Part shown: positions 4,660 through 38,118 of the stretch, one piece after another
Numbering within the stretch: the first letter of the stretch is position 1
Layout of the letters: each line of letters begins with the position of its first letter
Assembly (NCBI GenBank): GCA_017937405.1
Contig: JAGBDS010000077.1
Coordinates: forward strand, 1 to 38,452
From: Oscillibacter sp.
GTDB lineage: Bacteria; Bacillota; Clostridia; Oscillospirales; Oscillospiraceae
Direction of reading: 5' to 3'
Length of the DNA: 38,452 nt
The notes under the pieces: model-generated
Told to the model about the DNA's origin: nothing
Database searches by the model: none
The model's input: the letters and a program-made list of their open reading frames with translations, nothing else
Position numbers and translations under genes: made by a program

Positions 4660-5506
4660 GCACGTCCTCCAACACTTCCCACGCCTTGTAGGAGCTGCGG
4701 GCCAGGGGCGCGGAGGCCACATGGCGGAAGCCCTTGGCCAGGGCCATCTCCTTGTAGCGGGCGAAATCCTCCGGCGTGGCGTACCGGGCCAGGGGATAGT
4801 GCTGGGGAGAGGGCTGCAGGTACTGGCCGATGGTGAGGATGTCGCAGCCGGTGTCCAGAATGTCGTCCATCAAGGCGCTGATTTGCTCCTCTGCTTCGCC
4901 CAGGCCCACCATGAAGCCGGTCTTGGTGAGAAGGGTGGGGGCCTTCTGCTTGCAGTACCGCAGCACGTCCAGGGACCGCTGATACCGGGCCTGGGGCCGC
5001 ACGGCGGACTGGAGCTCCTTCACCGTCTCCACGTTGTGGTTCAGCACCTCCGGGTGGGCGGCGATGACAATGTCCAGGGCGTCGGTATTGCCCTTCATGT
5101 CGGAGATCAGCGTCTCCACGGTGGTGCCAGGGCAGACCTCCCGGATGGCCCGGACGCACTTGGCAAATTGCTCCGCGCCGCCGTCAGGCAGGTCGTCCCG
5201 GGTGGAGCAGGTGAGCACCACATGGCGCAGGCCCAGCTTCTTGGCGGCCTTCGCCACGTTCATGGGCTCGTCAGGGTCCGGGGGCAGGGGATGGCCGGTG
5301 GTGACGTTGCAGAACCGGCAGTTCCGGGTGCAGATGCTGCCTAAAATCATAAAGGTAGAGGTGTGCTTGCGGTAGCACTCCCCCAGGTTGGGGCAGTTGG
5401 CCTCCTTGCAGACGGTGTTCAGCTTCAGGTCCCGCATCAGCTCCGCCACTTCATTGACGGCGTCCTGATTGTAGCGGACCTTCAGCCATTCAGGCTTCTT
5501 TTCCAT
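4646..5506 (-). CDS. lipA: Lipoyl synthase LipA
   Basis: This 286-residue radical-SAM enzyme inserts two sulfurs into a protein-bound octanoyl chain to make lipoyl. Both iron-sulfur clusters are visible: the auxiliary cluster at C33, C38 and C44 (NTVCKEANCPNLGEC) and the radical-SAM cluster at C59, C63 and C66 (CTRNCRFC). The family's C-terminal RSSY (270-273), whose serine ligates the auxiliary cluster, is present. It starts nine bases after the lipoyl-domain gene and overlaps the following lplA by 14 bases, so the three are co-translated. Because LipA needs an octanoylated protein, its operon should contain an octanoyl-attaching activity and an acceptor; the flanking LplA proteins and the 79-residue lipoyl protein fit both roles. 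Confidence 0.95.
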   Translation of the reverse strand: MEKKPEWLKVRYNQDAVNEVAELMRDLKLNTVCKEANCPNLGECYRKHTSTFMILGSICTRNCRFCNVTTGHPLPPDPDEPMNVAKAAKKLGLRHVVLTCSTRDDLPDGGAEQFAKCVRAIREVCPGTTVETLISDMKGNTDALDIVIAAHPEVLNHNVETVKELQSAVRPQARYQRSLDVLRYCKQKAPTLLTKTGFMVGLGEAEEQISALMDDILDTGCDILTIGQYLQPSPQHYPLARYATPEDFARYKEMALAKGFRHVASAPLARSSYKAWEVLEDVHDLY

Positions 5507-5816: not shown

Positions 5817-6764
5817 TTACAGCAGCCAGTCCATCAGTTCCTCCGCCCGGTTTCCCGCAAGGGCCCGGCAGATTGTGTCAAAGCCCTCCGGGTCCAGACG
5901 CTGACCGTTCAAAAGCCGGGCGGCTTCGTCTCCGTCCACGGCATCGCAGTCAATTTCGGCGTTGGACACGATGCCCTTCTTCGCCTGATAGGCCACCCGG
6001 ATGGGGATCCCGGCAAAGGTGCCGGACTTTTCGTAGGTAAAGGCGGGCGTCCTGCCCCAAGTCCACTCCCAGGAGAGGTATTTTTCATCCCGCAGGCGGC
6101 AGACCTCCGATTCCTGCTCCGCCGTCAGCGTCAGCCGGGGGCAGCCGGGTGGCACCATCCGGTCCAGCAGCCGCTCTTTGAATTCCTCCAGGGTCATGGG
6201 TGCGGCCAGATGATCGGCAATGTTGGTGACAGGGCAGATGGCCGAGACCGTTCCCTTGGACTGGAAGCAGTCGTTTTTATGGTGGGTGGTGATCTGGTCC
6301 AGCACCGTCAGGTCGGCCTCAAACAGCAGCGTCCCGTGGTGGAGGACCCGGCCCCCGGCGGAGCGCTGGGCGCTGCCGGAGATTTTTCCCTCTCCGATGG
6401 CGATGTCACAGGTCCGGTTCTTCCGGGCCGGGACGCCGATATCGTTTAAAGCCTCAATGACGGGCTGGAGACAGCGGTCGTAGTCCAGCGGTCCGTCCTG
6501 GCGGGTGATGTAGGTATAATTCACATTGCCCAGGTCATGATAGACTGTGCCGCCGCCGCTCATGCGGCGCACCACGGGGATGCCCAGCCGCCGCAATGTC
6601 TCCACATGGACCTCCCGGCAGATGTTCTGGAAGCTGCCGACGATGACGGTGGGGCTGTTCTGCCAGAGGAGGAACACGTCGTCGTCCTGAAAGGACTGGA
6701 AGACAAATTCCTCGAAGGCCTGGTTGTAAAAGGGGTCGTGGGAATGGGCCAGCACGGTCAGCAT
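5817..6764 (-). CDS. lplA: Lipoate-protein ligase (LplA family), operon copy 2
   Basis: The protein has 315 residues and is the first gene of the lipoate operon. Motifs: RRMSGGGTVYHDLGN (67-80), K127 in GKISGSAQ, HHGTLLFEAD, and a C-terminal accessory domain with WTWGRTPAFTY. The usual RND just before the lysine loop is replaced by RTCD (117-120), placing a cysteine near the active site. It may therefore differ in substrate or mechanism from copy 1; the cysteine is not at the spacing I know for LipM octanoyltransferase, so I keep the call as ligase family. A strong promoter (6806-6833) drives it divergently from the parC-like gene. Confidence 0.85.
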   Translation of the reverse strand: MLTVLAHSHDPFYNQAFEEFVFQSFQDDDVFLLWQNSPTVIVGSFQNICREVHVETLRRLGIPVVRRMSGGGTVYHDLGNVNYTYITRQDGPLDYDRCLQPVIEALNDIGVPARKNRTCDIAIGEGKISGSAQRSAGGRVLHHGTLLFEADLTVLDQITTHHKNDCFQSKGTVSAICPVTNIADHLAAPMTLEEFKERLLDRMVPPGCPRLTLTAEQESEVCRLRDEKYLSWEWTWGRTPAFTYEKSGTFAGIPIRVAYQAKKGIVSNAEIDCDAVDGDEAARLLNGQRLDPEGFDTICRALAGNRAEELMDWLL

Positions 6765-10579: not shown

Positions 10580-10608
10580 TTGACAAGGTGTGATTTGTTT
10601 GTTAAAAT
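10580..10608 (+). promoter_or_regulatory. Promoter of tRNA-Gly
   Basis: TTGACA (10580-10585), 17-bp spacer, TAAAAT (10603-10608), placed 13 bases before the mature tRNA 5' end. Confidence 0.8.
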
Positions 10609-10620
10609 ACACCTTGTTCC

Positions 10621-10696
10621 GCGGGCATAGCTCATCTGGTAGAGCGCCACCTTGCCAAGGTGGAGGTAGCGAGTTCGAGCCTCGTTGCCCGCTCCA
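10621..10696 (+). tRNA. tRNA-Gly (GCC)
   Basis: The complete 76-nt cloverleaf has a 7-bp acceptor stem (GCGGGCA with TGCCCGC), anticodon GCC in a CCACC/GGTGG stem, a TTCGAGC T-loop and an encoded CCA. Its last 29 bases are duplicated twice downstream as part of a tandem repeat. Confidence 0.95.
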
Positions 10697-10701
10697 GAGT
10701 G

Positions 10702-10735
10702 AAACAGGACATCCGATTTGGATGTCCTGTTTTTT
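10702..10735 (+). terminator. tRNA-Gly terminator (repeat copy 1)
   Basis: A 12-bp stem (ACAGGACATCC arm and its complement around GATTT) is followed by six or more T. The same structure recurs at 10879-10913 and 11057-11089 in the repeat copies. Confidence 0.85.
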
Positions 10736-10878
10736 GTTAGAAAGAGAGAACTCGCTACCTCCACCTACGCGCAAAGCGCGTTTTGAATCCGAGGTCGGGC
10801 AGGGTTCCCGCGAATCGACGGAGGCGGTTCGTGGGATGCCGGGAAGCGAGTTCGAGCCTCGTTGCCCGCTCCAGAGTG

Positions 10879-10913
10879 AAACAGGACATCCGATTTGGAT
10901 GTCCTGTTTTTTT
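10879..10913 (+). terminator. Repeated terminator (copy 2)
   Basis: Same stem as the tRNA-Gly terminator with a longer T-run, directly after the second tRNA 3'-end copy. Confidence 0.7.
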
Positions 10914-11056
10914 GTTAGAAAGAGAGAACTCGCTACCTCCACCTACGCGCGAAGCGCGTTTTGAATCCGAGGTCGGGCAGGGTTCCCGCGAATCGCCGGA
11001 GGCGGTTCGTGGGACGCCGGGAAGCGAGTTCGAGCCTCGTTGCCCGCTCCAGAGTG

Positions 11057-15831: not shown

Positions 15832-16818
15832 TCAATTATCCAGCCGAAACACTCTTGATGACTTGTTCCATACGGTCAGCACTGTCCCTTCGCATTGAGC
15901 AGTCACATGTCCATAGACATCGAGTGTGAAAGCAGCGGTAGCATGGCCCAAATTCTCTTGAACAGTCTTGATGTCATCTCCGCTTTTGATTGCCAGAACA
16001 GCGTAGGTATGGCGTAAATCGTGAAATCGGGTAGAGGGAGAGCCGATCTTGTCCACAATTCGCTTAAAGCAATCATAGACAGTGCGGTAGGAAAGAAAGC
16101 CTCCGGTCTGGTTAGAGAAAATCAGGTTGTTTTCCTCCCAGCTGTTCCCGGCTTCTAGGCGCATCCCATTCTGCTTTAGCTTCTGCAAGCGAAACAACTG
16201 AGCAACAGATGGGGCCAGGGAGAGAACCCGGCTTTTATTGTTTTTGGGCGGTGAGAAATAGTACTTGCCGCCCTTTTGCTGTTCCCGGCGAAGTTGCTGC
16301 TTGATAAGGAGCGTTCCATGCTCTAGGTCTACACAGTCCTATGTGAGGCCAAGTACTTCCCCTTCACGCATCCCCGAAAACAACGTGATTTTATACAGAT
16401 ATTCGTGGGGATGGCCTTGAATGGCTTTTAGAAATTCGGAAACCTGAGTTTCATCAAGTGGCTGAATTTCCTTTTTTACTACACGGGGTGGCTTGCAGGC
16501 GTCTGTTGGGTTCACTCGAATATATCCATTCAGTACTGCCTGCTGTAGCGCTTTGTGAAGCACTCCGTGGAGGCTTCGGATAGTCTTGGCTGATAGCGGC
16601 TTGACATCCTTTTTGTCAGGTTTGTGCAGACGGTTATAGAGAGCCTGAACCATGGGGGAGGTCAGAGCGTCCAGCTTGACAGACCCTAAGTTAGGGATGA
16701 TGTACATTTCCACATTGATCCTTTTCGTTTTCTCCCTTATTTTCTCCCTTAAGTACCTAATACTACCCGGTACTACATGGTACAAGATAAAACATGGAAA
16801 ATCCGCAGACCGTTGCAA
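15832..16818 (-). pseudogene. Tyrosine recombinase/integrase, 5'-degraded with a nonsense codon
   Basis: The C-terminal catalytic domain of a phage-type integrase is clear: SGMREGEVLGL (first Arg box), HDLRHTYAVLAI and LGHATAAFTLDVYGHV. The reading frame is continuous from 16818 to 15832 except for one TAG at 16339-16341. It follows LGLT, where a TGG tryptophan (LGLTW) is expected; the frame resumes as DCVDLEHGTLLI. The N-terminal arm-binding domain is missing or scrambled: recognisable similarity begins only around MYIIPNLG. The 24-bp repeat at 16728-16751 lies inside this 5' part. It sits beside tRNA-Val, pointing inward, as an integrase of an element inserted there would. It should be inactive unless the stop is suppressed. 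Confidence 0.85.
16728..16751. repeat. 24-bp direct repeat, right copy
   Basis: Identical to 15806-15829 (two tandem TTTTCTCCCTTA units). On the minus strand it encodes the LREKIREK stretch of the integrase remnant. Confidence 0.75.
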
Positions 16819-17990: not shown

Positions 17991-18800
17991 TCAGGCGGAC
18001 AGGACGGTGTCGATCTCCGCGTTGGTGATGTTGTCGATGCTGAAGATCTGACCCAGGGGGTCCCAGGCGGTGCCGGTCCAGGCGTAATTCATGTTGCTGG
18101 ATTCCACATTCCACACGTCGCCGGCGGTGTTGCCGGAGGCGGGGAGGTCGGAAACGGCGGCGACGCTGCCCTTGTACTTATAGACGTTGGTCAGGTCGGA
18201 CTTCTTGACGTAGTTGGCCGCTTCGGTCAGCGACAGCGCACCGACTTCCGCGGCGGTATAGGTGGGCTTGACCGCCGCCTTGGCCCAGGCGGGCACGGTG
18301 GGGTCGGTTTCCGTGAAACTTTGAAGGGCGGTGTTGGCCTTGCCCAGGGAAGCCTGCACATCGGCGTCCAGGTCGCCCTTTGCCACGGTGGACTTGAAGG
18401 CCAGGGAGCCGAAGTCCGCCATGTACTTTGCGATCTTGCCCATCAGGATGGACAGCGTCTCGCCACTGGCAATGGCCGCACGGGTGGTCGCGGCGGTGAA
18501 CGTGACGGTGGTATTCTTCGCGTCGCCGGTGGCCGACAGGCGGGAAGTGTCAGTGGGGTGGATATGATCGCCTCTGGCGAAGGCGGTCTCGGTGCCTGCG
18601 GCGGCGGTACCGTCCATTTTGGGGACGGTGCTGGATGCCGCGGCGCCCTCGGGTACATCACCGGCGGTGATGAAGCCGCTGTCGTTGGTCAGCTGGCTGG
18701 TCTTGGTAGGGAGGGCGGAGCTGTCCGCCTTTGCTGCCAGCTTCTCTTTGATCTTTGCCCAAAAATACGCAAGGCCGGTTTCGTCAAGATACTTTGCCAT
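17991..18800 (-). CDS. Phage tail fibre-like protein
   Basis: The 269-residue protein begins with the YLDETGLAYFWAKIKEKL docking-type motif and is followed by low-complexity Ala/Thr-rich tail-fibre sequence: TSQLTNDSGFIT, GDHIHPTDTSRLS and ETDPTVPAWAK. These short blocks are recurrent in fibre proteins of clostridial phages and of contractile-tail particles. The C-terminal part (YKYKGSVAAVSDLPASGNTAGDVWNV) resembles small beta-rich tip modules. GGAGG for this gene overlaps the end of the preceding gene. It is part of the decayed prophage near tRNA-Val. Confidence 0.75.
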   Translation of the reverse strand: MAKYLDETGLAYFWAKIKEKLAAKADSSALPTKTSQLTNDSGFITAGDVPEGAAASSTVPKMDGTAAAGTETAFARGDHIHPTDTSRLSATGDAKNTTVTFTAATTRAAIASGETLSILMGKIAKYMADFGSLAFKSTVAKGDLDADVQASLGKANTALQSFTETDPTVPAWAKAAVKPTYTAAEVGALSLTEAANYVKKSDLTNVYKYKGSVAAVSDLPASGNTAGDVWNVESSNMNYAWTGTAWDPLGQIFSIDNITNAEIDTVLSA

Positions 18801-24316: not shown

Positions 24317-25318
24317 ATGGGCAAACACGTGACTTATTTGGAGACCGGGTCTCAGGACCCCTGCTATAATCTGGCCTTTGAGGAGTATGTCCTGACCAAC
24401 CGGCTGGATGGAGACTATCTGCTGCTTTGGCAGAACGATAACACCATCGTGATCGGCCAGAATCAGAATGCGGAGGCGGAGATCAACCGGGCGTTTGTGG
24501 AGGAGCACGGCATTCATGTGGTGCGCCGTACCACAGGCGGAGGAGCGGTTTATCACGACCTGGGAAATCTGAACTATTCGTTTATCACCGACGCCGGCGA
24601 TGCGGAGCGGCTGACCATGGAGCGCTTCACCGTGCCGGTGGTCAATGCACTGCGGGGGCTTGGATTGCAGGCGGAGGCTTCTGGACGGAACGACATCCTT
24701 GTGGAGGGGAAAAAGGTCTCCGGCACGGCGCAGCGGCTCTTCAGAAACCGCATCCTGCATCACGGGACCTTACTTTTTGACGCAAATCCCAGCATGGTGG
24801 CGGGGGCGCTGCAGGTGGACCCTGAAAAATTCCGATCCAAAAGTGCAAAGTCCGTGCGGAGCCGAATCGGGAACATCCGGGAGTTTCTTGGTACGGACAT
24901 GGAACTTCCGGCCTTCTGGGAGTATCTGAAAACCGCTCTGGCCGGAGACGGCCTGACGGCGGGGACGCTGTCCGCCGGGGAGCTGGAGCATGTCAGCGAC
25001 CTCAAGCGGAGCAAGTACGACACCTGGGCGTGGAACTTCGGCCGCTCTCCCAAATACGATATGGTCAATAAGCGGTATTGGGACGGCGGATGTCTGGAGG
25101 TCCATGCCGCTGTGGAGAAAGGACTTCTGACGGATATTGCCTTTTACGGGGACTTCCTCTCCCGCTGCCCGCTGGACGGGCTGACAGCAGCCCTCCGCGG
25201 CTGCGCGTTCCGCAGAGAGGATGTGGCTACTGTGCTGGAACGGTATCCGCTGCAGGACTATTTTGGCGGAATTACGGAGAATGAGGTTCTGGAGACCATG
25301 TTCCATGTCCATGAATAA
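24317..25318 (+). CDS. lplA: Lipoate-protein ligase (LplA), third paralogue
   Basis: The 333-residue protein has the classical motifs RRTTGGGAVYHDLGNLNYSF (70-89), GRND, K133 in GKKVSGTAQ, HHGTLLFD and WNFGRSPKYD. The C-terminal accessory domain is complete. Of the three copies in this window it is closest to textbook LplA and is the best candidate for scavenging free lipoate. It has its own strong promoter and GGAGGGAAC before the ATG, and stands alone. Nothing nearby identifies its acceptor protein. Confidence 0.9.
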   Translation: MGKHVTYLETGSQDPCYNLAFEEYVLTNRLDGDYLLLWQNDNTIVIGQNQNAEAEINRAFVEEHGIHVVRRTTGGGAVYHDLGNLNYSFITDAGDAERLTMERFTVPVVNALRGLGLQAEASGRNDILVEGKKVSGTAQRLFRNRILHHGTLLFDANPSMVAGALQVDPEKFRSKSAKSVRSRIGNIREFLGTDMELPAFWEYLKTALAGDGLTAGTLSAGELEHVSDLKRSKYDTWAWNFGRSPKYDMVNKRYWDGGCLEVHAAVEKGLLTDIAFYGDFLSRCPLDGLTAALRGCAFRREDVATVLERYPLQDYFGGITENEVLETMFHVHE

Positions 25319-26188: not shown

Positions 26189-26217
26189 TTGACAAAAATT
26201 TAGCACCCTTGTACAAT
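26189..26217 (+). promoter_or_regulatory. Promoter of nrf operon
   Basis: TTGACA (26189-26194), 17-bp spacer, TACAAT (26212-26217). The leader runs about 57 bases to the TTG start. No clear FNR, NsrR or HcpR palindrome is visible by eye. Confidence 0.8.
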
Positions 26218-26280: not shown

Positions 26281-28449
26281 TTGAAAATCAGAGTGCCATC
26301 CTGGGCAAGACTGGCGATTCTGTGTGTAATCGTCGGCGGTATGCTGGGCTTTGTGAACCATGTCACGGAAGGCCCTATCGCGCAACGGGCGGCAGAAGCC
26401 GCAGATGCCGCGCGGCGGTCTGTTTTCGCAGCGGCGGATTCTTTTGAGATGCTGGAGTTGTCCGCCGACAGCGGCGTGGACAATTGCTATGCAGCCATGA
26501 AGGACGGCCAGATGATCGGCTATGTGGTGCAGACCACGGTCTCCGGCTTCGGCGGCCCCATCGAGGTGCAGACGGGCCTCGATCTGGACTGTGTTGTTAC
26601 CGGCATCAGCGTGGGCGGCTCCAAATTCTCGGAGACCCCCGGCGTGGGCGCCCGGACCAAGAATCCGGAGTTTCAGGCGCAGTTTGCCGGTGTCAGCATC
26701 CCGGTGCAGCCCGGCAATAATGTGGACGCCATCACCGGCGCTACGGTCAGCTCCGGCGCGGTGTGCAGCGCTGTGAACAAGGGCGGCTATTTCGTCCGGG
26801 ACCTTATCAACCCGCCTGTGGATGACGGACGGCCTGAGGACCTGCAGTTCGGCGGCGTCCTGCCCGGCGCCACTACGAAGCAGCAGGAGACCGCGCCCGA
26901 AGGCATCGACGAGCTGTATACCTCCGATGCCGGTGTGGTGGTTTACGTCACCGGCCAGGGACGCAACGGTCCCATGCAGGTGCAGGTGGGCGTGGGACAC
27001 AGCGGCCAGGTGGCCGGCGTGTACATCGACCCTGCCAAGCACAAGGAGACAGAAGGCCTTGGCGACATGGTGGAGGAGCAGTATTTCTGGGGCCAGTTCA
27101 TCGGCTATCCCGGCACCTTTACCATCGGTGAGAATGTGGATGCCGTGACCGGCGCCACCATCACCTCCAAAACGGTGGCGGATTGCGTGAACCGGGCGGT
27201 GGAAGCGGCGCAGCCCTTCCTGGACCCCTCCAAGGCGACGGACATCCCGCCTCTGGGCCAGAGTGCTGCACCCTCCGGCGGCTCCGGCAGCTCCGGCGTC
27301 AAGCGCCGTGCCCAGGTGGTCAAGACAGGCTCCGGCGTCACCGTGATGACCGCCCAGGACTGGGCTTCCAAGTATCCTGAGATTTACGCCTCCTATCTGG
27401 CAAACGGCGAAAACAGGGAGGTCCACGACTATACCAAGGACTATCCCATGATCGGCACCATTTACGAGGGCATGGCCTTCTCCAAGTTCTACGGCAGCGC
27501 CCGGGGCCATGTCTATACCGTGGAGGATGTGACCGCCACCGGACGGCCTCACGCCCTTGCCAACTGCTTCAGCTGCAAGACCCCGGACTTCACCGCCATG
27601 GTGAATGAGTTGGGCGACGCGGCCTACCGGCTACCCTTTGAGGATGTGCTGGCGGAGATCAACGAGCCCATCAGCTGCTATAACTGCCACGCCAACACCG
27701 GCGACGAGCTGGTTGTGACTCATACATACCTGTCGGATGCCATGGGGGAGGAACTGAAGGGCGTGGAGGCGGCGACGCTGTCCTGCGGCCAGTGCCATGT
27801 GGAGTATTACTTCCATCCCACCACCAAGGCCACCACATTGCCCTACACAAGCCTTGCCACCATGACGCCGGACAACATTCTGGCCTATTACAATCACACC
27901 AAGGTGGACGGCCAGGTATTCGCCGACTACGTGAATCCCCGGACTGGTGTGCGGCAGATCAAGGTGCAGCATCCCGAATTTGAGACCTTCATGGGTGAGG
28001 GTAGCGTCCACGCGGGCACCTTCACCTGTGCCGACTGCCACATGGGCGAAGCCACAGCGGCGGACGGTACCACCTACATCAGCCACACCTGGATCAGCCC
28101 CCTGGAGAACAAGAGTTTGTTGGAAGGCACCTGCGCCGAATGTCACACGGACCTCGTCAAGGAAGTGGCGGACATCCAGGCCGAGACAGAGCGGCGAACC
28201 TACGCCGTGGGCTATGAGCTGGAGGGCCTGACGGAGAAGCTGGTCAAGGCCGTGGAGAGCGGCCGGTACACCGAGGAGGAGCTGGACGCCATCCGTTCTC
28301 TGGCCCGTGACGCGCAGTTCTATTGGGATTTCGTATTCGTGGAAAACAGCGAGGGTGCCCACAACTCCGCTCTGGCGAAGGAGTGCCTGAACAAGTCTGA
28401 GGCGCTGCTGAATCAGGCCATGGGCCTATTCAAACCACAGGAGGGATAA
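26281..28449 (+). CDS. nrfA: FMN-binding domains fused to pentaheme NrfA nitrite reductase
   Basis: The 722-residue protein starts at a TTG, supported by AGAGGTGA about seven bases upstream. Residues 7-26 form a membrane anchor. Two FMN_bind (RnfG/NqrC-type) domains follow, with the flavinylation motifs DAITGAT (T155) and DAVTGAT (T293). A Gly/Ser linker (about 325-340) leads to a full NrfA domain (about 345-722). Five heme motifs are visible: CFSCK (429-433, the catalytic CxxCK), CYNCH (466), CGQCH (502), CADCH (583) and CAECH (618). Active-site residues by family correspondence are R408, Y509 and H564, with E508, K561 and Q563 for the calcium site. NrfA reduces nitrite to ammonium outside the membrane. 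The fusion implies electrons pass from covalent FMN to heme in one polypeptide. FMN attachment would need an ApbE, which is not in this window. Confidence 0.92.
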   Translation: MKIRVPSWARLAILCVIVGGMLGFVNHVTEGPIAQRAAEAADAARRSVFAAADSFEMLELSADSGVDNCYAAMKDGQMIGYVVQTTVSGFGGPIEVQTGLDLDCVVTGISVGGSKFSETPGVGARTKNPEFQAQFAGVSIPVQPGNNVDAITGATVSSGAVCSAVNKGGYFVRDLINPPVDDGRPEDLQFGGVLPGATTKQQETAPEGIDELYTSDAGVVVYVTGQGRNGPMQVQVGVGHSGQVAGVYIDPAKHKETEGLGDMVEEQYFWGQFIGYPGTFTIGENVDAVTGATITSKTVADCVNRAVEAAQPFLDPSKATDIPPLGQSAAPSGGSGSSGVKRRAQVVKTGSGVTVMTAQDWASKYPEIYASYLANGENREVHDYTKDYPMIGTIYEGMAFSKFYGSARGHVYTVEDVTATGRPHALANCFSCKTPDFTAMVNELGDAAYRLPFEDVLAEINEPISCYNCHANTGDELVVTHTYLSDAMGEELKGVEAATLSCGQCHVEYYFHPTTKATTLPYTSLATMTPDNILAYYNHTKVDGQVFADYVNPRTGVRQIKVQHPEFETFMGEGSVHAGTFTCADCHMGEATAADGTTYISHTWISPLENKSLLEGTCAECHTDLVKEVADIQAETERRTYAVGYELEGLTEKLVKAVESGRYTEEELDAIRSLARDAQFYWDFVFVENSEGAHNSALAKECLNKSEALLNQAMGLFKPQEG

Positions 28450-28450
28450 G

Positions 28451-29725
28451 ATGAAAAAGTTTTGGATGCTGCTTCTGACCGCGCTGATGGTGCTGAGCCT
28501 CTGCGCCTGTCAGAAGAAGGCCGAAGAACCGGCCCCGGAGACCCCTGCCCCTTCGGAAACAGCGGAACAGAGTGAGGAGACGGGCTTCCGCACAGCCCAG
28601 GTGGTGCAGACCGGCTCCGGCGTGACCGTCAAGACCGCCCAGGACTGGGCGGCGGAGTACCCGGAGATCTACGCCTCCTACATGGCGAATGAGGAGAACA
28701 CCGAGGTCCATGATTATACCAAGGACTATCCTATGATCCCCATCATCTATGAGGGCATGGCGTTCTCCAAGTTCTACGGCAGCGCCCGTGGCCATGTCTA
28801 CACCGTGGAGGATGTGACCTCCACCGGACGGCCTCACGCCCTTGCCAACTGCTTCAGCTGCAAGACCCCGGACTTTACCGCCATGGTGAACGAACTGGGC
28901 GACGCGGCCTATCAGATCCCCTTTGAGGATGCCTTGAAGGAGATCAACGAGCCCATCAGCTGCTACAACTGCCACGCCAACACCGGCGATGAGCTGGTGG
29001 TGACCCACACCTACCTGTCCGACGCCATGGGCGCGGACCTGGATAAGGTGGATGCCCGGACGCTGTCCTGCGGCCAGTGCCATGTGGAGTATTACTTTGC
29101 CCCCGGCACCAAGGCCACCACGCTGCCTTATCAGAATCTGGACACCATGACGCCCGACGCCATTCTGGACTACTACAACCGCACCATCGTGGACGGCCAG
29201 CCCTTCGCGGATTACACGAATCCCCGGACGGGCGTGCGGCAGATCAAGGTCCAGCACCCGGAGTTTGAGACGTACATGGGCGCCGGTAGCGTCCATGCCG
29301 ATACCTTCACCTGCGCCGACTGCCACATGGGCGAGGCCACGGCGGCGGACGGCACCACCTACATCAGCCACACCTGGATCAGCCCCCTGGAGAACGACGC
29401 CCTGATGGAGAACACCTGCGCCCAGTGCCACACCGATCTGAAGGGTCAGGTGCGGGCCATCCAGGAGGAGACCGAGCGGCGGACCTACGCCGTGGGCTAT
29501 GAGCTGGAGGCTTTGACGGAGAAGCTGGTGGACGCCATCGAGAGCGGCAATTACACCGAGGAGGAGCTGGACGCCATCCGTGCCGTGGCCCGTGACGCGC
29601 AGTTCTACTGGGACTTCGTCTTCGTAGAGAACAGCGAGGGCGCCCACAACTCCGCGCTGGACAAGGACTGCCTGAACAAGGCGGAAGCGCTGGCCAACCA
29701 GGCCATGGGTATGTTCAAGCGGTGA
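28451..29725 (+). CDS. nrfA: Lipoprotein pentaheme nitrite reductase NrfA
   Basis: The 424-residue protein has a lipoprotein signal peptide (LLLTALMVLSLCAC, lipidated C20), an acidic Pro/Glu linker, then the NrfA domain. Hemes: CFSCK (134-138), CYNCH (171), CGQCH (207), CADCH (288) and CAQCH (323). The catalytic HVEYYF, KVQHPEFE and SARGHVYTVEDV blocks are identical to the fused copy, and the two catalytic domains are nearly the same over their full length. AGGAGG for this gene lies in the end of the upstream gene and only one base separates stop and start. In Gram-positives it would be tethered to the outer face of the membrane. It lacks flavin domains and so may pair with the fused NrfA, as NrfA normally forms dimers. 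Confidence 0.93.
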   Translation: MKKFWMLLLTALMVLSLCACQKKAEEPAPETPAPSETAEQSEETGFRTAQVVQTGSGVTVKTAQDWAAEYPEIYASYMANEENTEVHDYTKDYPMIPIIYEGMAFSKFYGSARGHVYTVEDVTSTGRPHALANCFSCKTPDFTAMVNELGDAAYQIPFEDALKEINEPISCYNCHANTGDELVVTHTYLSDAMGADLDKVDARTLSCGQCHVEYYFAPGTKATTLPYQNLDTMTPDAILDYYNRTIVDGQPFADYTNPRTGVRQIKVQHPEFETYMGAGSVHADTFTCADCHMGEATAADGTTYISHTWISPLENDALMENTCAQCHTDLKGQVRAIQEETERRTYAVGYELEALTEKLVDAIESGNYTEEELDAIRAVARDAQFYWDFVFVENSEGAHNSALDKDCLNKAEALANQAMGMFKR

Positions 29726-29735
29726 TTCTGTGCAA

Positions 29736-29772
29736 AAAGCGCCGTCCGCTCCTTGGCGGACGGCACTTTTTT
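29736..29772 (+). terminator. Terminator between nrfA and resB
   Basis: A perfect 9-bp stem (29741-29749 with 29756-29764), six-base loop, and six T after an AC. It ends 17 bases before the resB start codon, so it would lower resBC expression relative to nrfA or act as an attenuator. Confidence 0.8.
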
Positions 29773-29789: not shown

Positions 29790-31046
29790 TTGCTGAAAAA
29801 AGTTCTGAAATTCCTGCGCTCCATGGCCTTCGGCATGGTGCTGCTGGTGCTGATCCTGATCTGCAGTCTGGCAGGCTCCCTGATCGCGCAGGGAAATGAC
29901 CCGTCGTGGTACGTGCAGACCTATCCCGGCTGGCACGGCCCGCTGTTGGCGCTGGGACTGGACGATGTGTTCAATAGCTGGTATTTCATCACGCTGCTGG
30001 TGCTGCTGTGCCTGAATCTGGTGTTGTGCTCTCTGGTGCGCATCCGGCGGGTGGTGAAGGCGGCGAAAAACGCTCCGGCCAACGCCGCCAAGCTGGAGAC
30101 GCAGGTACATCTGACGCCTGCGGGCGCGGAGCAGTTGCGGATCCACCTGGAGGGTCGGCATTACAAAAAAACAGAGTGCGGTGAAGCCACCATCTATACG
30201 AAAAACTCCCTTGGGTGGTACGGTTCCTTCCTGACCCATCTGGCCATCCTGCTGACGGTGCTGTTCGGAGCGGCGGCCATCTATTTGCCCACGGTGACGG
30301 ACCAGACCTGTATGCCCGGTCAGGCGCTGACCATGGCGGACGGCACCGCCATCGGCGTGGAGTCCTTCCATATTGAAAATGAGACCGGGGAGCTGGACTA
30401 TGCCAGCGTCATCACCGTTACCCTGCCGGACGGCCGCACGGGAGGTCCGGAGCGCATCAGCGTCAACCACCCCTATGCCTTCGGCGGCTATAAGATCTAC
30501 CAGCAGACCTACGGCACCGCCGGAGCAGTGACCGTCCGCAATACCGCCACCGGCGGCGAGGACAGCTTTACCTTGGATTCCATGTGCTTTTTGTCCCTGG
30601 ATGGCACCAACGGCGTCTGGTTTGAGGCGCTGTACCCCGGCTACATCCGGGATGAGAACGGGAACTTCACCCTCATCACCCAGACCTCCGGCGCCTATGA
30701 GGACCCGGTGTACCAGATCCTGCTGGCCTCTGACGGCGTGTACACCCCAGTGATGGTATTCCCCGGGGAGACGGTGTCCGTAGCGGGGGTGGACTTCACC
30801 TTTGATGACCCCGTGGAGTATCCGGGCCTGCGCATCAAGCGGACGCCCACGCTGGTCAACGCCCTGCTGTGCGCCGCCTTTGTGCTGATGATCGCGGGAC
30901 TGTGGTTCTGTTTCTTCCAGACGCCGGTCATCGTGACGGTGCGGGAGGACGGCTATGCTGTGGGCGGCCCCAAGCCCCAGGGACTGGAGCTGGAGTTGTC
31001 AGCCCTGCTGGAAACTGAGATCAGAAAAGAGGATGAACAATGCTGA
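29790..31046 (+). CDS. resB: Cytochrome c biogenesis protein ResB (Ccs1)
   Basis: The 418-residue protein has four membrane helices: about 12-32 (FGMVLLVLILICSLAGSLIA), 65-90, 147-168 and 355-378. A large extracytoplasmic domain lies between the third and fourth. This is the ResB/Ccs1 layout, though shorter than the B. subtilis protein. With ResC it delivers heme and attaches it to CxxCH motifs outside the membrane (System II). The start is a TTG at 29790, with GAGG upstream. Placement directly after two pentaheme cytochromes fits. The stop codon overlaps the resC start by seven bases. Confidence 0.9.
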   Translation: MLKKVLKFLRSMAFGMVLLVLILICSLAGSLIAQGNDPSWYVQTYPGWHGPLLALGLDDVFNSWYFITLLVLLCLNLVLCSLVRIRRVVKAAKNAPANAAKLETQVHLTPAGAEQLRIHLEGRHYKKTECGEATIYTKNSLGWYGSFLTHLAILLTVLFGAAAIYLPTVTDQTCMPGQALTMADGTAIGVESFHIENETGELDYASVITVTLPDGRTGGPERISVNHPYAFGGYKIYQQTYGTAGAVTVRNTATGGEDSFTLDSMCFLSLDGTNGVWFEALYPGYIRDENGNFTLITQTSGAYEDPVYQILLASDGVYTPVMVFPGETVSVAGVDFTFDDPVEYPGLRIKRTPTLVNALLCAAFVLMIAGLWFCFFQTPVIVTVREDGYAVGGPKPQGLELELSALLETEIRKEDEQC

Positions 31047-31828
31047 ACATTTTGTTTTTTGCGGGGCTTGCCCTGTATCTCGCTGCCGTTGTGTTGGAGT
31101 TCGGCGGCATGGTGTTCAAAAAAGAGGCGGTGACCAAGGCCGCTTGGTGGCTTTTCGTGGCAGGCGCGGTTTGCAACACCGCCTATCTGGTGGCCCGGGG
31201 CATCGCCGCCGGACGGCTGCCGCTGTCCAACCAGTTTGAGTTTGCCACGGCCTTCGCCTGGGGCATCGCGGTGATGCTCATTGTCCTGCGGATGAAGTTC
31301 CGGGCGGAGTGGGTCTCCGCCGTGGCCATGCCCATGGTGTTCCTGGTGCTGTCCTATGCGGCCCTCCAGCCCAAGGAAATCACGGAGCTGATGCCCGCCC
31401 TGCGTAGTGCCTGGTTCGGCCTGCATATCGGCTCCGCCGTGTTCTCCTATGCCGCCTTCGTGCTGGCGGGCTGCGGCGGAGTGCGGTATCTGCTGCTGGA
31501 AAAGCGGGAGTGTGAAAGTGCGCGGCTCTCCCAGATGGACTATCTGTGCTACCGGTTGGTGGCGCTGGGCTTCCTGCTGCTGACAGTGGTCATCCTCTCC
31601 GGCGCCATCTGGGCGGAGCAGGCGTGGTCCGCCTTCTGGACATGGGATCCCAAGGAGACCTGGGCGCTTATCACGTGGATTCTGTATGCTATCTATCTGC
31701 ATCTGCGGATGCGGAAGAAGCGGAGCGGCAAGGTCATGGCCTGGTTCACTGTCATCGCCGTCCCGGTGGTGCTGTTCACTTTCATCGGCGTCAATACCCT
31801 GCTGCCGGGCCTCCATTCCTACGGCTGA
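31040..31828 (+). CDS. resC: Cytochrome c biogenesis protein ResC (CcsA)
   Basis: The 262-residue protein has about eight membrane helices and the heme-handling tryptophan-rich motif WAEQAWSAFWTWDPKETW (near 192-209). Conserved histidines near helix ends (GLHIGSAVFSYAAF and the terminal LLPGLHSYG) act as heme ligands in the family. Together with ResB it forms the System II heme lyase. No thiol-reducing CcdA or ResA is in the window. The CxxCK catalytic heme of NrfA is handled by a dedicated lyase in some proteobacteria; here none is visible, so this ResBC pair presumably handles both motifs, as proposed for other non-proteobacterial NrfA loci. Confidence 0.9.
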   Translation: MLNILFFAGLALYLAAVVLEFGGMVFKKEAVTKAAWWLFVAGAVCNTAYLVARGIAAGRLPLSNQFEFATAFAWGIAVMLIVLRMKFRAEWVSAVAMPMVFLVLSYAALQPKEITELMPALRSAWFGLHIGSAVFSYAAFVLAGCGGVRYLLLEKRECESARLSQMDYLCYRLVALGFLLLTVVILSGAIWAEQAWSAFWTWDPKETWALITWILYAIYLHLRMRKKRSGKVMAWFTVIAVPVVLFTFIGVNTLLPGLHSYG

Positions 31829-33300: not shown

Positions 33301-34935
33301 TCAGGATTTCTTCTCTCCAAAGAACAGCGCCAGATCGTCTTCCACGGTGCCGATACCGGCGATGCCGAAGCGCTTCACCAGCACCTTGGACACATTGGGA
33401 CTGAGGAAGGCCGGCAGGGTGGGGCCCAGGTGAATGTTCTTCACTCCCAGATACAGCAGAGACAGCAGCACGATGACCGCCTTCTGCTCGTACCAGGCGA
33501 TGTTGTAGACGATGGGCAGGTCGTTGATGTCCTCCAGGCCGAAGACCTCCTTCAGCTTCAGGGCGATGACCGCCAGAGAGTAGGAGTCGTTGCACTGGCC
33601 CGCGTCCAGCACCCGGGGGATGCCGCCGATCTCGCCCAGGTCCAGCTTGTTGTACTTGTACTTGGCGCAGCCGGCAGTGAGAATGACGGCGTCCTTGGGC
33701 AGAGCCTTGGCGAACTCCGTGTAGTAGTCTCGGCTCTTGGCACGGCCGTCGCAGCCTGCCATGACCACGAATTTGCGGATAGCGCCGCTCTTGACGGCCT
33801 CCACAACCTTGTCCGCCAGAGCCATCACCTGGGCATGGGCAAAGCCGCCGATGATTTCGCCCCGCTCCAGCTCCGTGGGAGGCGCGCAGCGCTTGGCGAG
33901 CTCGATGAGGGCGGAGAAGTCCTTCTCCTCGCCGATGTGCGTGCAGCCGGGATAGCCTGCTGCCCCGGTGGTGTACAGCCGGTCCTTGTAGCTGTCCTTC
34001 GGCGGCACGATGCAGTTGGTGGTCATGAGGATGGGGCCGTTGAACTGCTGGAACTCCTCCTTTTGCTTCCACCAGGCGTTGCCGTAGTTGCCCACGAAGT
34101 TGGGATACTTTTTGAAGACCGGGTAGTAGTGGGCCGGGAGCATCTCGGAGTGGGTGTACACGTCCACACCGGTACCCTGGGTCTGCTCCAGCAGCAGCTC
34201 CAGGTCCCGCAGATCGTGGCCGGAGACCAGGATACCGGGATTTTTACCCACGCCGATATTCACTCTCGTGATTTCCGGATTTCCGTAGGCCTCGGTGTTG
34301 GCCTTGTCCAGTAGCGCCATGCCGCTGACACCATACTTGCCGGTCTCCAGCGCCAGGGCTACCAGATCATCCGCTGTCAGACTGTCATCCAGTGTGGCAG
34401 CCAGAGCCCGCTGCAGGAAGGCGTCCACTTCGCCGTCCTCCCGCAGCAGGGCGTTGGCGTGCTTGGAGTAAGCGGACAGGCCCTTCAAGCCGTAGGTGAT
34501 GAGCTCCCGCAGGGAGCGGATGTCCTCATCCTCCGTGGACAGCACGCTCGCCTGTGCGGCCTTAGCTTCAAACGCAGACTCCTCCGCCGTCCAGTGGGCA
34601 GCTTCGGGCAGGGCAGAGCTGTCCATGACCAGGGTCAACAGTTCCTGCTTTACATCCAGTGTCTCCCGGATACGAGACACGATGGCTTCCTTGTCGAAGT
34701 TCGCGTTGGTGATGGTGACGAACAGGTTCCAGGTGACCAGGTAGTTCACTTGGGCGTCCACCGCTGTCCCCTCGGCCCGCAGTTGGGTGGTCACGGCGGC
34801 AAGACCCCGGGTCACGTAGACCAGCAGGTCCTGCATGGCCGCCACGTCCGGCGTTTTTCCGCAGACACCAACCCGGGTGCAACCGGCGCAGCCGGCGGTC
34901 TCCTGGCACTGATAGCAAAACATGTTGTGTTCCAT
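33301..34935 (-). CDS. hcp: Hydroxylamine reductase (hybrid cluster protein)
   Basis: The 544-residue Hcp starts at 34935, with GGAGG eight bases upstream. The N-terminal four cysteines C7, C10, C19 and C25 have the CX2CX8CX5C spacing of the [4Fe-4S] class found in strict anaerobes. Hybrid-cluster ligand blocks are visible: [51 protein letters not shown] and GQCNDSYS. Hcp reduces hydroxylamine in vitro and nitric oxide in vivo, in the cytosol. Convergent to the nrf operon, it is a logical partner that removes NO and hydroxylamine escaping nitrite reduction. No Hcr reductase gene is adjacent. Confidence 0.95.
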
Positions 34936-35127
34936 GAATATACCTCCATATGTTCCGTGGGCGGGGCGTTGCGCCTCCGCCGATGGTTCCTTGATGTGAC
35001 GGACACAGTATACGATGTGCACCGAAGTAAATCTGTTGGAAAAACAACAAAACAGAGCGGAAATACATGGATATTATGGAGGTTTGGATATTTAAAGGTA
35101 TTCTTTCACTGGCTATTCCCAGAACAA

Positions 35128-35889
35128 AGCAAGGACCGTGATATCGCCATGGTGTTCCAGAGCTACGCTCTGTACCCCCACATGACGGTCTATGAGAACA
35201 TGGCCTTCTCCCTGAAGCTGCGGAAGTTCCCAAAGGACGAGATCGACAAGCGGGTGCGGGAGGCTGCCGAGGCTCTGGACATCACCCAGTATCTGGACCG
35301 GAAGCCCAAGGCCCTGTCCGGCGGTCAGCGGCAACGCGTGGCCATCGGCCGTGCCATCGTCCGGGAGCCCAAGGTGCTGCTGATGGACGAGCCCCTGTCT
35401 AACCTGGACGCCAAGCTGCGCAACCAGATGCGTGCGGAGATCATCAAGCTGCGGCAGAAGATCGACACGACGTTCATGTACGTGACTCATGACCAGACCG
35501 AGGCCATGACCCTGGGTGACCGCATCGTCATTATGAAGGACGGCGTTATCCAGCAGGTAGGAACCCCCCAGGAGGTCTTTGACCACCCTGCCAACCTGTT
35601 CGTGGCCGGCTTCATCGGCGTGCCCCAGATGAACTTCTTCGACGCCGAGCTGGTGAAGGCAGAGGGCAAGTACGCCGTGACCGTGGGCGGCATCCAGGTG
35701 GAACTGAGTGAGGAGAAGCAGGCCGCTCTGACGAAGAACGGTGTGGCGTCCCAGACCATCACCCTGGGCGTGCGGCCCGAGCACATCGCCCTTATGGGTG
35801 ACGGAGCCCAGATGCTCCACGGCACCGTGGATGTCAGCGAGATGATGGGCAGTGCGGTGCACCTGCATGTGAACGTGCTGGGCAAGGAC
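35128..35889 (+). pseudogene. Sugar ABC transporter ATPase (MsmX/UgpC type), both ends missing
   Basis: About 254 codons match the middle of an MsmX-type ATPase: Q-loop [17 protein letters not shown], signature [14 protein letters not shown], Walker [14 protein letters not shown]-loop [10 protein letters not shown], and the regulatory TOBE region ([12 protein letters not shown]). Homology begins abruptly at SKDRDIAM, so Walker A and about the first 70-80 residues are absent. It ends abruptly at LHVNVLGKD, before the normal C-terminus, where phage-like sequence starts. No permease or binding-protein gene is nearby. Without Walker A it cannot hydrolyse ATP. It is a recombination relic and its open frame extends by chance on both sides. 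Confidence 0.85.
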
Positions 35890-35891
35890 GC

Positions 35892-36167
35892 TAGTGCCGA
35901 GATGTCCGGGGGACATCATCACAGAAGGAAAAAGTCTCCACCACTGTGTGGGAGGATAACCTCGCTCTGGCCCAGGCCGAAGCGTGGCCCGGAAGCGTCA
36001 CTGTGGAGCGCGTCCCGGAGGACGAGCGGCCGCCGGCAGCGCCGCCCAGCAATGAGGAGCTGGCGGCGGAGAACAAGCTTCTGAAGGAGCAGGTATCCGC
36101 TCTCAGCGACCAGAACGAATTCCAGGAAGAGCTGATCGTAGAGCTGGCAAACATCGTCTATGCGTAA
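35892..36167 (+). pseudogene. Phage tail gene, 3' fragment
   Basis: A frame ending TAA at 36165-36167 encodes [22 protein letters not shown], a Pro/Glu linker, a Leu/Glu heptad coiled coil ([24 protein letters not shown]) and the ending ELIVELANIVYA. It is the kind of C-terminus found in tail-associated proteins just upstream of small XkdX-like and lysis genes. The 5' part is replaced by the ABC ATPase fragment at about 35890-35912, so the beginning is lost. No ribosome site leads it. Confidence 0.55.
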
Positions 36168-36475: not shown

Positions 36476-36757
36476 ATGTACATCGACATCGAGACCATCA
36501 ACTCCCTTGCAAAGCTCATTGGTTCCCTGGCAGTGATCGGCGGCGCTCTGGTTGCCCTCTACAAGTTCGTTGAGCGGGACAAAAGGCAGAGCAAGCTCAT
36601 CAAGGATATCCAGACGGAGCAGACGCTTTTGTGCTACGGAATCAAGGCCTGTTTGCAGGGGCTGGCGGAGCAGGGCTGTGACGGCCCGGTGCATGATGCG
36701 CTGGATAAGTTAGACAAGCACCTCAACCAGAAAGCTCACGGGGAGGTGCCGGGATGA
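36476..36757 (+). CDS. Phage membrane-anchored small protein (module B)
   Basis: The 93-residue protein has a membrane helix at about 12-30 (LIGSLAVIGGALVALYKFV) followed by a charged helical tail (ERDKRQSKLIKDIQTEQTLLCYG). It leads the lysis cassette: GGAGG before the ATG, and its stop overlaps the next gene (ATGA). It has the shape and position of an XhlA-like holin partner, though its sequence differs from the module A protein at 17300. Function inferred from context. Confidence 0.65.
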   Translation: MYIDIETINSLAKLIGSLAVIGGALVALYKFVERDKRQSKLIKDIQTEQTLLCYGIKACLQGLAEQGCDGPVHDALDKLDKHLNQKAHGEVPG

Positions 36758-37104
36758 GCGGCAAGCGTCTGGACAAGCCCCATGGCCCGGCCACCAGCAA
36801 GGTGATCGCCCTGGGCGTCCTGCTGATGGACGCGGTGGCAACTTTGGCCGTGCTGGCTCTCTGCGGCCTCGCTATCGTGCGTCAGTTCCAGGGGGCGCTC
36901 CCATACCTAACCACCCTTATCGGGGCCTTACAGGCCGTCACAGGCGTTGTGCTGGGGGCATATTTCAACAAGAGCAAGGCGGAAAACACAAAAGGCGGCA
37001 TCGTCTATGACGCCGCCCTGGGTGTGTCAGCCGCGGAACAGTGGAATGGTCCCGCGGTAGGCACAGCGGGAGATGCTGTGTCCGATTCGGACACGGATTT
37101 GTGA
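36754..37104 (+). CDS. Phage holin-like membrane protein (module B)
   Basis: The 116-residue protein has membrane helices at about 17-42 (VIALGVLLMDAVATLAVLALCGLAIV) and 48-70. The block GALPYLTTLIGALQAVTGVVLGAYFNKSKAENTKGGIVYDAAL is shared with the module A protein at 16893-17303, showing that two related phages left remnants in this window. The C-terminal tail is acidic (DAVSDSDTDL). It is coupled to the genes on both sides. Holin or antiholin function is inferred from shape and from the neighbouring endolysin. Confidence 0.7.
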   Translation: MSGKRLDKPHGPATSKVIALGVLLMDAVATLAVLALCGLAIVRQFQGALPYLTTLIGALQAVTGVVLGAYFNKSKAENTKGGIVYDAALGVSAAEQWNGPAVGTAGDAVSDSDTDL

Positions 37105-37115
37105 AAGGAGTACAT

Positions 37116-37439
37116 ATGAACATCGTAACAATTCTGATGGTGCTGCCGCTGCTGGTGGCATTGACCAACATGATCACCAACGTCATCAAGGGCCTGTGCG
37201 AGGCATTTGCTACCCACGCCAAGCTCATTGCTCCGGTGGTGGCGGTGTCTCTGACGCTGCTGGCCACTGCAGCCTATTTGCAGGTGTTTTCTGTGGCGGC
37301 AACCTGGTATTGGTACGCTGGCGGCGCGGTCGCTGGCCTTGTGGTAGCATATGTGGCAATGAACGGATACGACGGCCTGTATGAGGATTTGATCAAGCAT
37401 ATGAAAGGTCTGGCAGGTGGCGGAAATGGCAACAGCTAA
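37116..37439 (+). CDS. Phage holin
   Basis: The 107-residue protein has three membrane segments: 2-22 (IVTILMVLPLLVALTNMITNV), 38-62 (LIAPVVAVSLTLLATAAYLQVF) and 68-85. A short charged tail ends in Gly-rich residues. AAGGAG lies six bases before the ATG. It overlaps the endolysin gene, the usual order for holin and lysin. It would form membrane lesions that let the endolysin reach the wall. Confidence 0.75.
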   Translation: MNIVTILMVLPLLVALTNMITNVIKGLCEAFATHAKLIAPVVAVSLTLLATAAYLQVFSVAATWYWYAGGAVAGLVVAYVAMNGYDGLYEDLIKHMKGLAGGGNGNS

Positions 37440-38118
37440 GGATATTTTATCAGTTGCCCGCTCTGAGCTGGGGTGCAAGGAATCCCCGGCGGGCTCCAAC
37501 CGAACCAAATACGGCGCCTGGTACGGTCTGGATGGACAGCCCTGGTGCATGATGTTCATCCAGTGGGTGTTTGCCCAGGCCGGGGCGGCTCTGCCTGTCA
37601 AAACGGCGTCCTGCGGGACCTTCATGCGGGCAGCCCAGGCCGCCGGGCGGTGGGTGACATCCAATTACCAGCCGGGGGATGTTGTGATTTACGATTTCCC
37701 AGGCGGCGGGGCCACGGACCACTGCGGCATCGTGGAGCAGCTTGCAGGCGGCGGGATCATGGCTATTGAAGGAAACACCGGGGCTGGAAACGATGCAGAC
37801 GGCGGCCAAGTGCAGCGCCGTCCCCGCAGCAATAAGGTGATCGTCGGCGCGTTCAGGCCATCATATGACGTGGAAGAAACGGAGGACAATGTGATGAGAT
37901 ATACATACCTGAAAGACATCCCGGAGAAGTTCCGTCCCATCATCAACGACCTGATGACTGCCGGCATCATCCAGGGCGACGGCAGTGACCCTGCGGGCAA
38001 CGGCGACATCATCAACCTGACCCATGAGCAGGTGCGTACCCTGGTGTTTGTCTACCGGGGCGGCGGGTTTGACGCCAAGCTGATGGCTGTGGGGCTGGAG
38101 CCGGCAATCCAGCAATGA
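37426..38118 (+). CDS. CHAP-domain endolysin
   Basis: The 230-residue protein has an N-terminal CHAP amidase/endopeptidase domain with the catalytic C41 (PWCMMFIQW) and H99 (DHCGIVEQL) and the family NTG.. block (EGNTGAG). A C-terminal about 75-residue helical domain (YLKDIPEKFRPIINDLMTAGII) often follows CHAP or amidase domains in clostridial lysins and may bind the wall. It cuts peptidoglycan at lysis. I chose the ATG at 37426; a GTG at 37417 is also possible. The frame is intact, so the cassette could still be active if expressed. Confidence 0.85.
   Translation: MATAKDILSVARSELGCKESPAGSNRTKYGAWYGLDGQPWCMMFIQWVFAQAGAALPVKTASCGTFMRAAQAAGRWVTSNYQPGDVVIYDFPGGGATDHCGIVEQLAGGGIMAIEGNTGAGNDADGGQVQRRPRSNKVIVGAFRPSYDVEETEDNVMRYTYLKDIPEKFRPIINDLMTAGIIQGDGSDPAGNGDIINLTHEQVRTLVFVYRGGGFDAKLMAVGLEPAIQQ

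Follow-up and report, generated by a model that had tools for sequence, protein, structure and literature searches.

The pentaheme nitrite reductase NrfA obtains its electrons from quinol, either through NrfH or through NrfB, the latter being its partner in enterobacteria. PMC4683180 names NrfH as an electron donor of NrfA and characterizes NrfA by a first heme bound to a CxxCK motif together with a list of conserved active-site and calcium-site residues. Here we analyze a 38,452-nucleotide stretch of an Oscillibacter sp. genome (assembly GCA_017937405.1, contig JAGBDS010000077.1; hereafter the window), in which one gene encodes an N-terminal membrane helix, two FMN_bind domains (FMN, flavin mononucleotide) and a complete NrfA on a single chain of 722 amino acids. 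We consider it probable, at roughly 60%, that the product is a cell-surface, ammonia-forming nitrite reductase into which electrons enter through a flavin module of the RnfG type and not through NrfH.

Among other multiheme cytochromes, MmcA of Methanosarcina acetivorans is tied to the Rnf complex. PMC11024163 describes it as a multiheme cytochrome c for intracellular and extracellular electron transport and places it with the tetrathionate reductase family, NrfA being a mere outgroup in the tree, which sets it apart from the fusion studied here. Closer in architecture are multi-flavinylated Christensenellales RnfGs that include a multi-heme cytochrome domain, for which Meheust et al. 2021 (PMC8238504, section 18 and Fig. 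6) proposed a bifurcated Rnf path. The window's protein likewise combines an RnfG, more than one FMN domain and a multi-heme domain; it differs in being encoded outside an rnf cluster, and the main text of that paper does not name NrfA. The same text describes nitrite reductase clusters in which NapH-like proteins occur with NirS, and, in section 17, an extracytosolic fumarate reductase of Listeria whose FMN-binding domain links the reductase to the electron transport chain. The likeness to the Listeria enzyme lies in an FMN_bind domain that would feed an extracytosolic reductase, the difference in the catalytic part, which is a fumarate reductase flavoprotein in Listeria and a pentaheme cytochrome in the window.

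A literature search outside subscription papers and supplements found neither an FMN_bind-NrfA fusion nor an rnf-nrfA operon. The novelty claimed by a sequence-only reading that preceded this analysis is reduced accordingly: the general kind, a multi-FMN, multi-heme RnfG, was already published, and what was not found in the literature, as far as it was covered, is the identity of the cytochrome as NrfA, along with the tandem partner, the fusions with a single FMN domain and the operons of rnf and nrfA described below.

Two FMN domains and NrfA in one reading frame

The fusion gene is open over 722 codons from a TTG start, without an internal stop, and is preceded by a Shine-Dalgarno-like AAAGAGGTGA. 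A domain search of the 722-residue protein recovered FMN_bind twice (E 2.9e-30) and Cytochrom_C552 over residues 359-713 (E 1.9e-71). Both flavin attachment motifs are intact (DAITGAT, D149 to T155; DAVTGAT, D287 to T293), as are all heme motifs of NrfA. The double-FMN/NrfA fusion that the sequence-only reading had described is thus real and confirmed.

The N-terminus has the sequence features of RnfG, namely a membrane helix and an FMN_bind domain with its S/T-G-A-T motif, over the full length of that subunit. Positions 4-184 of the 187 positions of the NCBIfam rnfG model align with residues 11-171 of the fusion; the N-terminal 176 residues alone score 96.5 bits (cut-off 102), compared with 101.6 for the rnfG of the genome's own rnf operon. 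T155 is invariant in an alignment of 26 rows comprising the fusion, its copy in a second genome and 24 RnfG-type proteins. A structure model of residues 1-350 gave as its top PDB matches two RnfGs, those of C. tetanomorphum (7zc6_G, E 7.3e-11) and A. woodii (9eri_G, E 7.0e-10), with which the fusion shares the membrane helix, the full-length alignment and the invariant attachment threonine. It differs from these RnfGs in continuing with a second FMN domain and NrfA and in being encoded outside the rnf operon, by a genome that has a separate rnfG as well.

The C-terminal part carries five heme motifs, CFSCK at C429 and CYNCH, CGQCH, CADCH and CAECH at C466, C502, C583 and C618, as well as ARGH (407), CHVEYYF (505), KVQH (561) and ENSEGAHN (688). 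When aligned with 2vr0 and 1oah, the active-site and calcium-site residues (Arg, Lys, Glu, Tyr, Lys, Gln, His) were found in ARGH, CFSCK, CHVEYYF and KVQH, the assignment of the residues listed in PMC4683180 to these motifs being our own. The domain scores 241.8 bits against the Cytochrom_C552 gathering cut-off of 24.1, and two NCBIfam nitrite reductase models stay below their cut-offs on the fusion (187.5 of 595 and 150.6 of 692.5 bits). The best PDB match of the full-length model is E. coli NrfA (2rdz, E 2.9e-22). Compared with NrfHA of Desulfovibrio vulgaris (2j7a/2vr0), the fusion agrees in its five hemes, the first of them with CxxCK, in the ARGH, CHxEYYF and KxQH motifs and in the fold; judged by its sequence, the fused protein qualifies as an NrfA.

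A break between the FMN domains and NrfA in other assemblies was looked for and not found. Another genome of the genus (G013) has an identical layout, with an intact 722-residue frame that is 98% identical to that of the window. Between the two genomes, the ratio of non-synonymous to synonymous substitution rates (dN/dS) is 0.065 for the whole gene, 0.082 for the first FMN domain, 0.048 for the second and 0.093 for NrfA; the fusion gene is under constraint. Synonymous divergence between the two copies (26281-28449 of the window and 10206-12374 of L142, the G013 locus) is uneven, at 0.24-0.31 over the helix and FMN domains and 0.09 over NrfA, possibly as a result of recombination or gene conversion.

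A stand-alone nrfA, absent from the sequence-only reading, starts one base after the fusion gene, and G013 has this tandem copy too. It shares with the fused domain the pentaheme pattern of CFSCK plus four CxxCH. The two nrfA copies are about 82% alike at the DNA level and separated by a synonymous divergence (dS) of about 0.6, and both have therefore been retained for a long time. In the NrfA tree, the fused copies of the two genomes pair with each other, as do the stand-alone copies (100/99 each); the duplication is therefore older than the split between these genomes, and both products were kept.

A survey of 86 genomes of the genus returned a match at E <= 1e-30 in seven. One of these, G012, contributes a fragment (L145) with 80% identity to the window's NrfA, whose N-terminus is not readable because the fragment ends at a contig end. 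In G009 (match over 123-718, two stops), an upstream FMN gene joined to nrfA was considered and rejected, the contig (C126) being without an FMN_bind match.

Electron donors and the Rnf connection of NrfA relatives

Within the family, 31 of 400 genomes gave an NrfA match at E <= 1e-20, and within the class five of 391 did, the window's genome being counted in each. After removal of duplicate contig copies, 82 NrfA rows were classed; 59 belong to the window's clade, 57 by the NrfA tree plus the truncated L145 and L214, both left out of the tree. These 59 comprise two double-FMN fusions, 18 single-FMN fusions, nine NrfAs encoded directly behind rnfB and 30 with neither, that is, with no FMN domain on the NrfA chain and no rnfB within 400 bp. 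In 55 of the 59 rows nrfA is followed by genes for ResB and CcsB; the two double-FMN fusions were scored as misses because the tandem nrfA intervenes.

The single-FMN fusions consist of a membrane helix, one FMN_bind domain and NrfA in 519-604 residues, and the GAT attachment motif is kept in all 18, which do not represent 18 independent events because some are near-copies. In the NrfA tree they fall into a clade of 20 rows that includes two unfused proteins (100/99) and whose sister is the window's own clade with L033 (92/91). A CRP/FNR-type regulator gene adjoins many of them (L034, L040, L188, L192, L198, L203 and others), mostly in divergent orientation, the one beside L034 being backed by Pfam; the same neighbourhood search found no such regulator beside the window's operon.

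The sequence-only reading had stated that neither NrfH nor an NrfB-type partner is present. For NrfH this is borne out by the absence of any PF03264 (NrfH/NapC) match in the window's genome (G000), which is about 89% complete, so that absences in it are not final. The same holds for all eight genomes of that search, and no match exceeded the cut-off in any of 38 genomes, in which one weak fragment below it was seen (G249) and the E. coli control was positive. NrfB-type partners were sought only as additional open reading frames (ORFs) with at least three CxxCH motifs, counted by motif and not as NrfH family members, and in the window none lies within 8 kb of nrfA. The NrfH/NapC/NrfB partner that marks the NrfHA and NrfAB types is in this sense missing, and the chain carries two FMN domains. 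Across the clade, such an ORF was found within 8 kb in one of 59 rows (L057, the deepest; five rows have less than 700 bp upstream). Outside the clade, 51 of the 54 loci L059-L112 have one within 1.5 kb; of these loci 19 were chosen for classing, and among the 23 outside rows 17 have such an ORF, those without being L060, L064 and L215-L218.

Quinone as the source of electrons, which the sequence-only reading had allowed for, is disfavoured. No menD exceeded its cut-off in seven genomes, and an MqnA/D-type match was found in one of the seven (G226, partial). Searches of the window's genome gave nothing for MqnA/D and a menD-like match below the cut-off (E 5.6e-10), one of four such sub-cut-off matches among the seven genomes; menD-like matches were present in all 14 control genomes, seven of them over the cut-off. 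For the other part of that proposal, entry through covalent FMN in place of NrfH, the support comes from comparison, which favours a supply of the hemes from FMN and a link to Rnf. ApbE, which accompanies the attachment motifs, is encoded on contig C86 of the genome (E 3e-85) and was found in seven of eight genomes searched, and FMN_bind matches in the window's genome are confined to the fusion gene and rnfG. The genome has a complete rnfCDGEAB set, with Pfam-backed names, on a separate contig (C110).

The chief argument for a working partnership between Rnf and the NrfA of this clade is the position of nrfA in the rnf operons of relatives. At L206-L209 and L211-L213, in seven genomes, the genes rnfC, a fused rnfD-rnfG, rnfE, rnfA, rnfB, nrfA, resB and ccsB follow one another on one strand; L210 and L033 show only part of this order because their contigs end. 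The rnf names in relatives were given by similarity to the rnf set of the window's genome, with Pfam backing for the fused RnfD-RnfG of L208 and L213, RnfC and RnfB of L208 and RnfB of L033. The spacing between rnfB and nrfA is tight, with a 12 bp gap at L033 and a 1 bp overlap at L208. NrfA of L033 is 75% identical to that of the window and is grouped by the tree with both copies of the window and those of G013 (99/95); its genome (G917) also contains a second rnfCDGEAB set, where the stretch examined shows no nrfA. A further arrangement occurs at L056/L230, a locus counted among the 30 rows with neither feature, where nrfA, resB and ccsB are followed, 1.8 kb after ccsB, by rnfD, an RnfG with two FMN domains, rnfE, rnfA and a short rnfB-like ORF.

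A tree of FMN domains (120 columns; repeat copies of the same domain and pieces shorter than 60 residues omitted) was relied on for one split only. A 100/100 branch separates the domain of the single-FMN fusions from the RnfG types and groups it with FMN_bind domains from large proteins outside both RnfG and NrfA (L132, L140), and both FMN domains of the window's protein lie on the RnfG side. If this split is right, FMN domains joined NrfA of this clade at least twice. The fusion belongs to an association of NrfA with flavin or Rnf modules that recurs.

Second Rnf-like sets, consisting by similarity of RnfC, a fused RnfD-RnfG, RnfE and RnfA, were also observed in four genomes of the genus (G009, G027, G029 and G068; L131, L133, L135, L137, L138 and L235-L239). 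A protein with FAD_binding_2 and FMN_bind domains is encoded beside the set in L236 and L239, with a TatC gene also in L236, and no RnfB-like match was found in L235, L236, L238 or L239. A second Rnf combined with an extracytosolic reductase is possibly a general pattern.

A flavin route to NrfA and its alternatives

In the mechanism that we propose, cytosolic ferredoxin (or NADH) would reduce the Rnf complex, and the electrons would then move through the membrane to an FMN layer on its extracytosolic side. There the RnfG-like N-terminus of the fusion would either replace the ordinary RnfG or dock beside it, passing electrons from the FMN on T155 to that on T293 and on to the five NrfA hemes, at which nitrite would be reduced to ammonium. 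The tandem lipoprotein-like NrfA is a probable partner, and the two proteins might form a mixed dimer with electrons moving across the NrfA dimer interface. We infer flavinylation, docking to Rnf, the direction of electron flow, nitrite as the substrate and the mixed dimer; the sequence itself shows the domains, motifs, conservation, gene content and gene orders described above. The enzyme had previously been called self-contained, which is at least overstated: its N-terminus corresponds to a whole RnfG-like subunit, and rnfCDGEAB is encoded elsewhere in the genome. Because the N-terminus is a whole RnfG-like subunit, the fusion is more likely to depend on Rnf, and because an 83%-identical stand-alone NrfA starts one base downstream, the fused protein may not act alone.

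A broader formulation, whose chances fall a little short of even, is that Oscillospiraceae-type Clostridia have a third route for feeding NrfA, in which Rnf would serve as a ferredoxin/NADH:nitrite oxidoreductase through covalent FMN. In the window's organism RnfG would itself have turned into the nitrite reductase, as an exchangeable RnfG-FMN-NrfA subunit that pairs with a lipoprotein-like twin of NrfA and diverts the housekeeping Rnf away from NAD+ and towards nitrite on the extracytosolic side. If the flavin/Rnf route is true, fermenters without quinones could use nitrite as an electron sink, and nitrite reduction might be coupled to ion pumping. Nitrite toxicity, the formation of ammonia and the disposal of hydrogen would be affected in the gut and rumen, from which many of the relatives come. 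The fusion would also be a natural example, open to test, of flavin-to-multiheme electron transfer on one chain.

Several observations weigh against an RnfG-type entry of electrons. The fusion gene lies outside any rnf operon, preceded by a gene for a lipoate ligase and followed by nrfA, resB and ccsB, and the double-FMN form occurs in just two of the 86 genus genomes. Since 30 of the 59 clade rows have neither an on-chain FMN domain nor a nearby rnfB, NrfA of this clade can function without such a partner close by. No multiheme partner was found either at L215-L218, four rows of the group that is sister to the clade, so that the absence of NrfH reaches further than the flavin/Rnf link and the loss of the partner may predate the flavin link. 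G027 (about 76% complete, no fusion) gave no ApbE match. The grouping of the first FMN domain nearest to nrfA-linked RnfGs is a hint, at 92/73 only and with long branches flagged. Finally, the region of that domain has low confidence in the full-length model, and a distance between FMN and heme is therefore not claimed.

The position outside an rnf operon would suit a scheme in which another membrane flavin system or free reduced flavins feed the FMN domains, Rnf being uninvolved and the likeness to RnfG a matter of ancestry. Such a scheme would agree with the placement of the single-FMN fusions' domain apart from RnfG, among the FMN domains of large non-RnfG proteins, and flavin-based extracytosolic electron transfer is known from Gram-positive bacteria (PMC8238504). 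We consider it unlikely in view of the RnfG-like N-terminus, which extends over the full length with the membrane helix included, the position of the closely related L033 NrfA behind rnfB, and the confinement of the genome's FMN_bind matches to the fusion gene and rnfG. The tandem copy opens a different division of labour, similarly improbable in our estimate, in which the fused copy would mainly deliver electrons, in the manner of NrfB or NrfH, to the lipoprotein-like NrfA as the main catalyst. Its 83% identity, its presence beside the fusion in both genomes and the long retention indicated by a dS of about 0.6 would all fit, but the catalytic motifs of the fused copy are intact as well.

Even with electrons supplied through an RnfG-type module, the role of the enzyme could be detoxification of nitrite, nitric oxide or hydroxylamine and not energy-conserving respiration. 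The hybrid cluster protein (Hcp/prismane) gene downstream in both the window and G013, where the relative lies at 3631-5352 of L142, and the CRP/FNR-type regulators beside several single-FMN fusions point this way; both would fit a response to nitrite or nitric oxide. Two NrfA copies with a maturation system, and relatives whose NrfA is encoded with an ion-translocating complex, suit energy conservation, and detoxification strikes us as a plausible but somewhat less probable role. An artefact of assembly or annotation, or a decaying fusion, is very improbable and was rejected: both genomes are draft assemblies and the nrfA copies are alike at the DNA level, but the same join, linker and tandem copy recur in G013 in an intact frame under constraint (98% identity, dN/dS 0.065), and FMN_bind-NrfA fusions occur in 18 other distinct rows. 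Taken with these alternatives, entry of electrons through an RnfG-type flavin module is the reading that we prefer.

Gene neighbourhood and further features of the window

The features of the locus are listed in the table. The promoter-like site is one of nine in the 8.1 kb scanned, shuffled sequence giving a mean of 2.6. How much reductase is made relative to maturation proteins may be determined by the hairpin that separates the second nrfA from resB. The Hcp/prismane gene is a possible functional neighbour.

Table. Features of the nrfA locus (window coordinates)
Feature	Position	Strand	Evidence
Sigma-70-like promoter, TTGACA-17-TACAAT	26189..26217	+	11/12 consensus bases; consensus match only
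Gene for the 722-residue fusion of membrane helix, RnfG-like FMN domain, another FMN_bind domain and NrfA	26281..28449	+	Pfam, NCBIfam; same gene in G013
Membrane helix at the N-terminus (approximately residues 7-28), aligning with RnfG helix	26299..26364	+	Hydrophobic stretch and RnfG alignment; structure model: helix 7-48
FMN_bind domain 1 (RnfG type), attachment Thr155 at 26743-26745	26545..26781	+	E 2.2e-14
FMN_bind domain 2, attachment Thr293 at 27157-27159	26959..27204	+	E 3.3e-15
NrfA (Cytochrom_C552) domain	27355..28419	+	Heme motifs from 27565, 27676, 27784, 28027, 28132
Stand-alone tandem NrfA, 424 aa, lipoprotein-like signal LCAC (lipobox judged by eye)	28451..29725	+	83% identical to fused NrfA domain
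Terminator-like hairpin between second nrfA and resB	29741..29764	+	Consensus match only
ResB-like cytochrome c maturation protein	29790..31046	+	E 6.4e-43
CcsB/CcsA heme lyase	31040..31828	+	TIGR03144, 236.2 bits, cut-off 187.6
Hybrid cluster protein (Hcp/prismane)	33301..35022	-	Pfam Prismane, 597.3 bits

Elsewhere in the window, three lipoate-protein-ligase genes (LplA-B_cat; 3679-4722 and 5817-6764 on the minus strand, 24317-25318 on the plus strand) and a Radical_SAM gene resembling lipoyl synthase by eye (4646-5506, minus strand) were observed. An ORF beside tRNA-Gly (10590-10964) has a translation that repeats SETGHPIWMSCF, which suggests direct repeats there. A weak phage-integrase match that narrowly misses its cut-offs and a CHAP/NLPC_P60 lysin-like ORF were noted at 16339-16818 (minus), 36754-38118 (plus) and 17991-18800 (minus), in a set that also includes holin-like and tail-fibre-like ORFs named by eye, both without a Pfam match; together these ORFs are likely mobile-element remnants. 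Finally, a MalK-like ATPase ORF (34459-36084, plus strand) matches ABC_tran from model position 55 onward, and its N-terminus looks missing or foreign.

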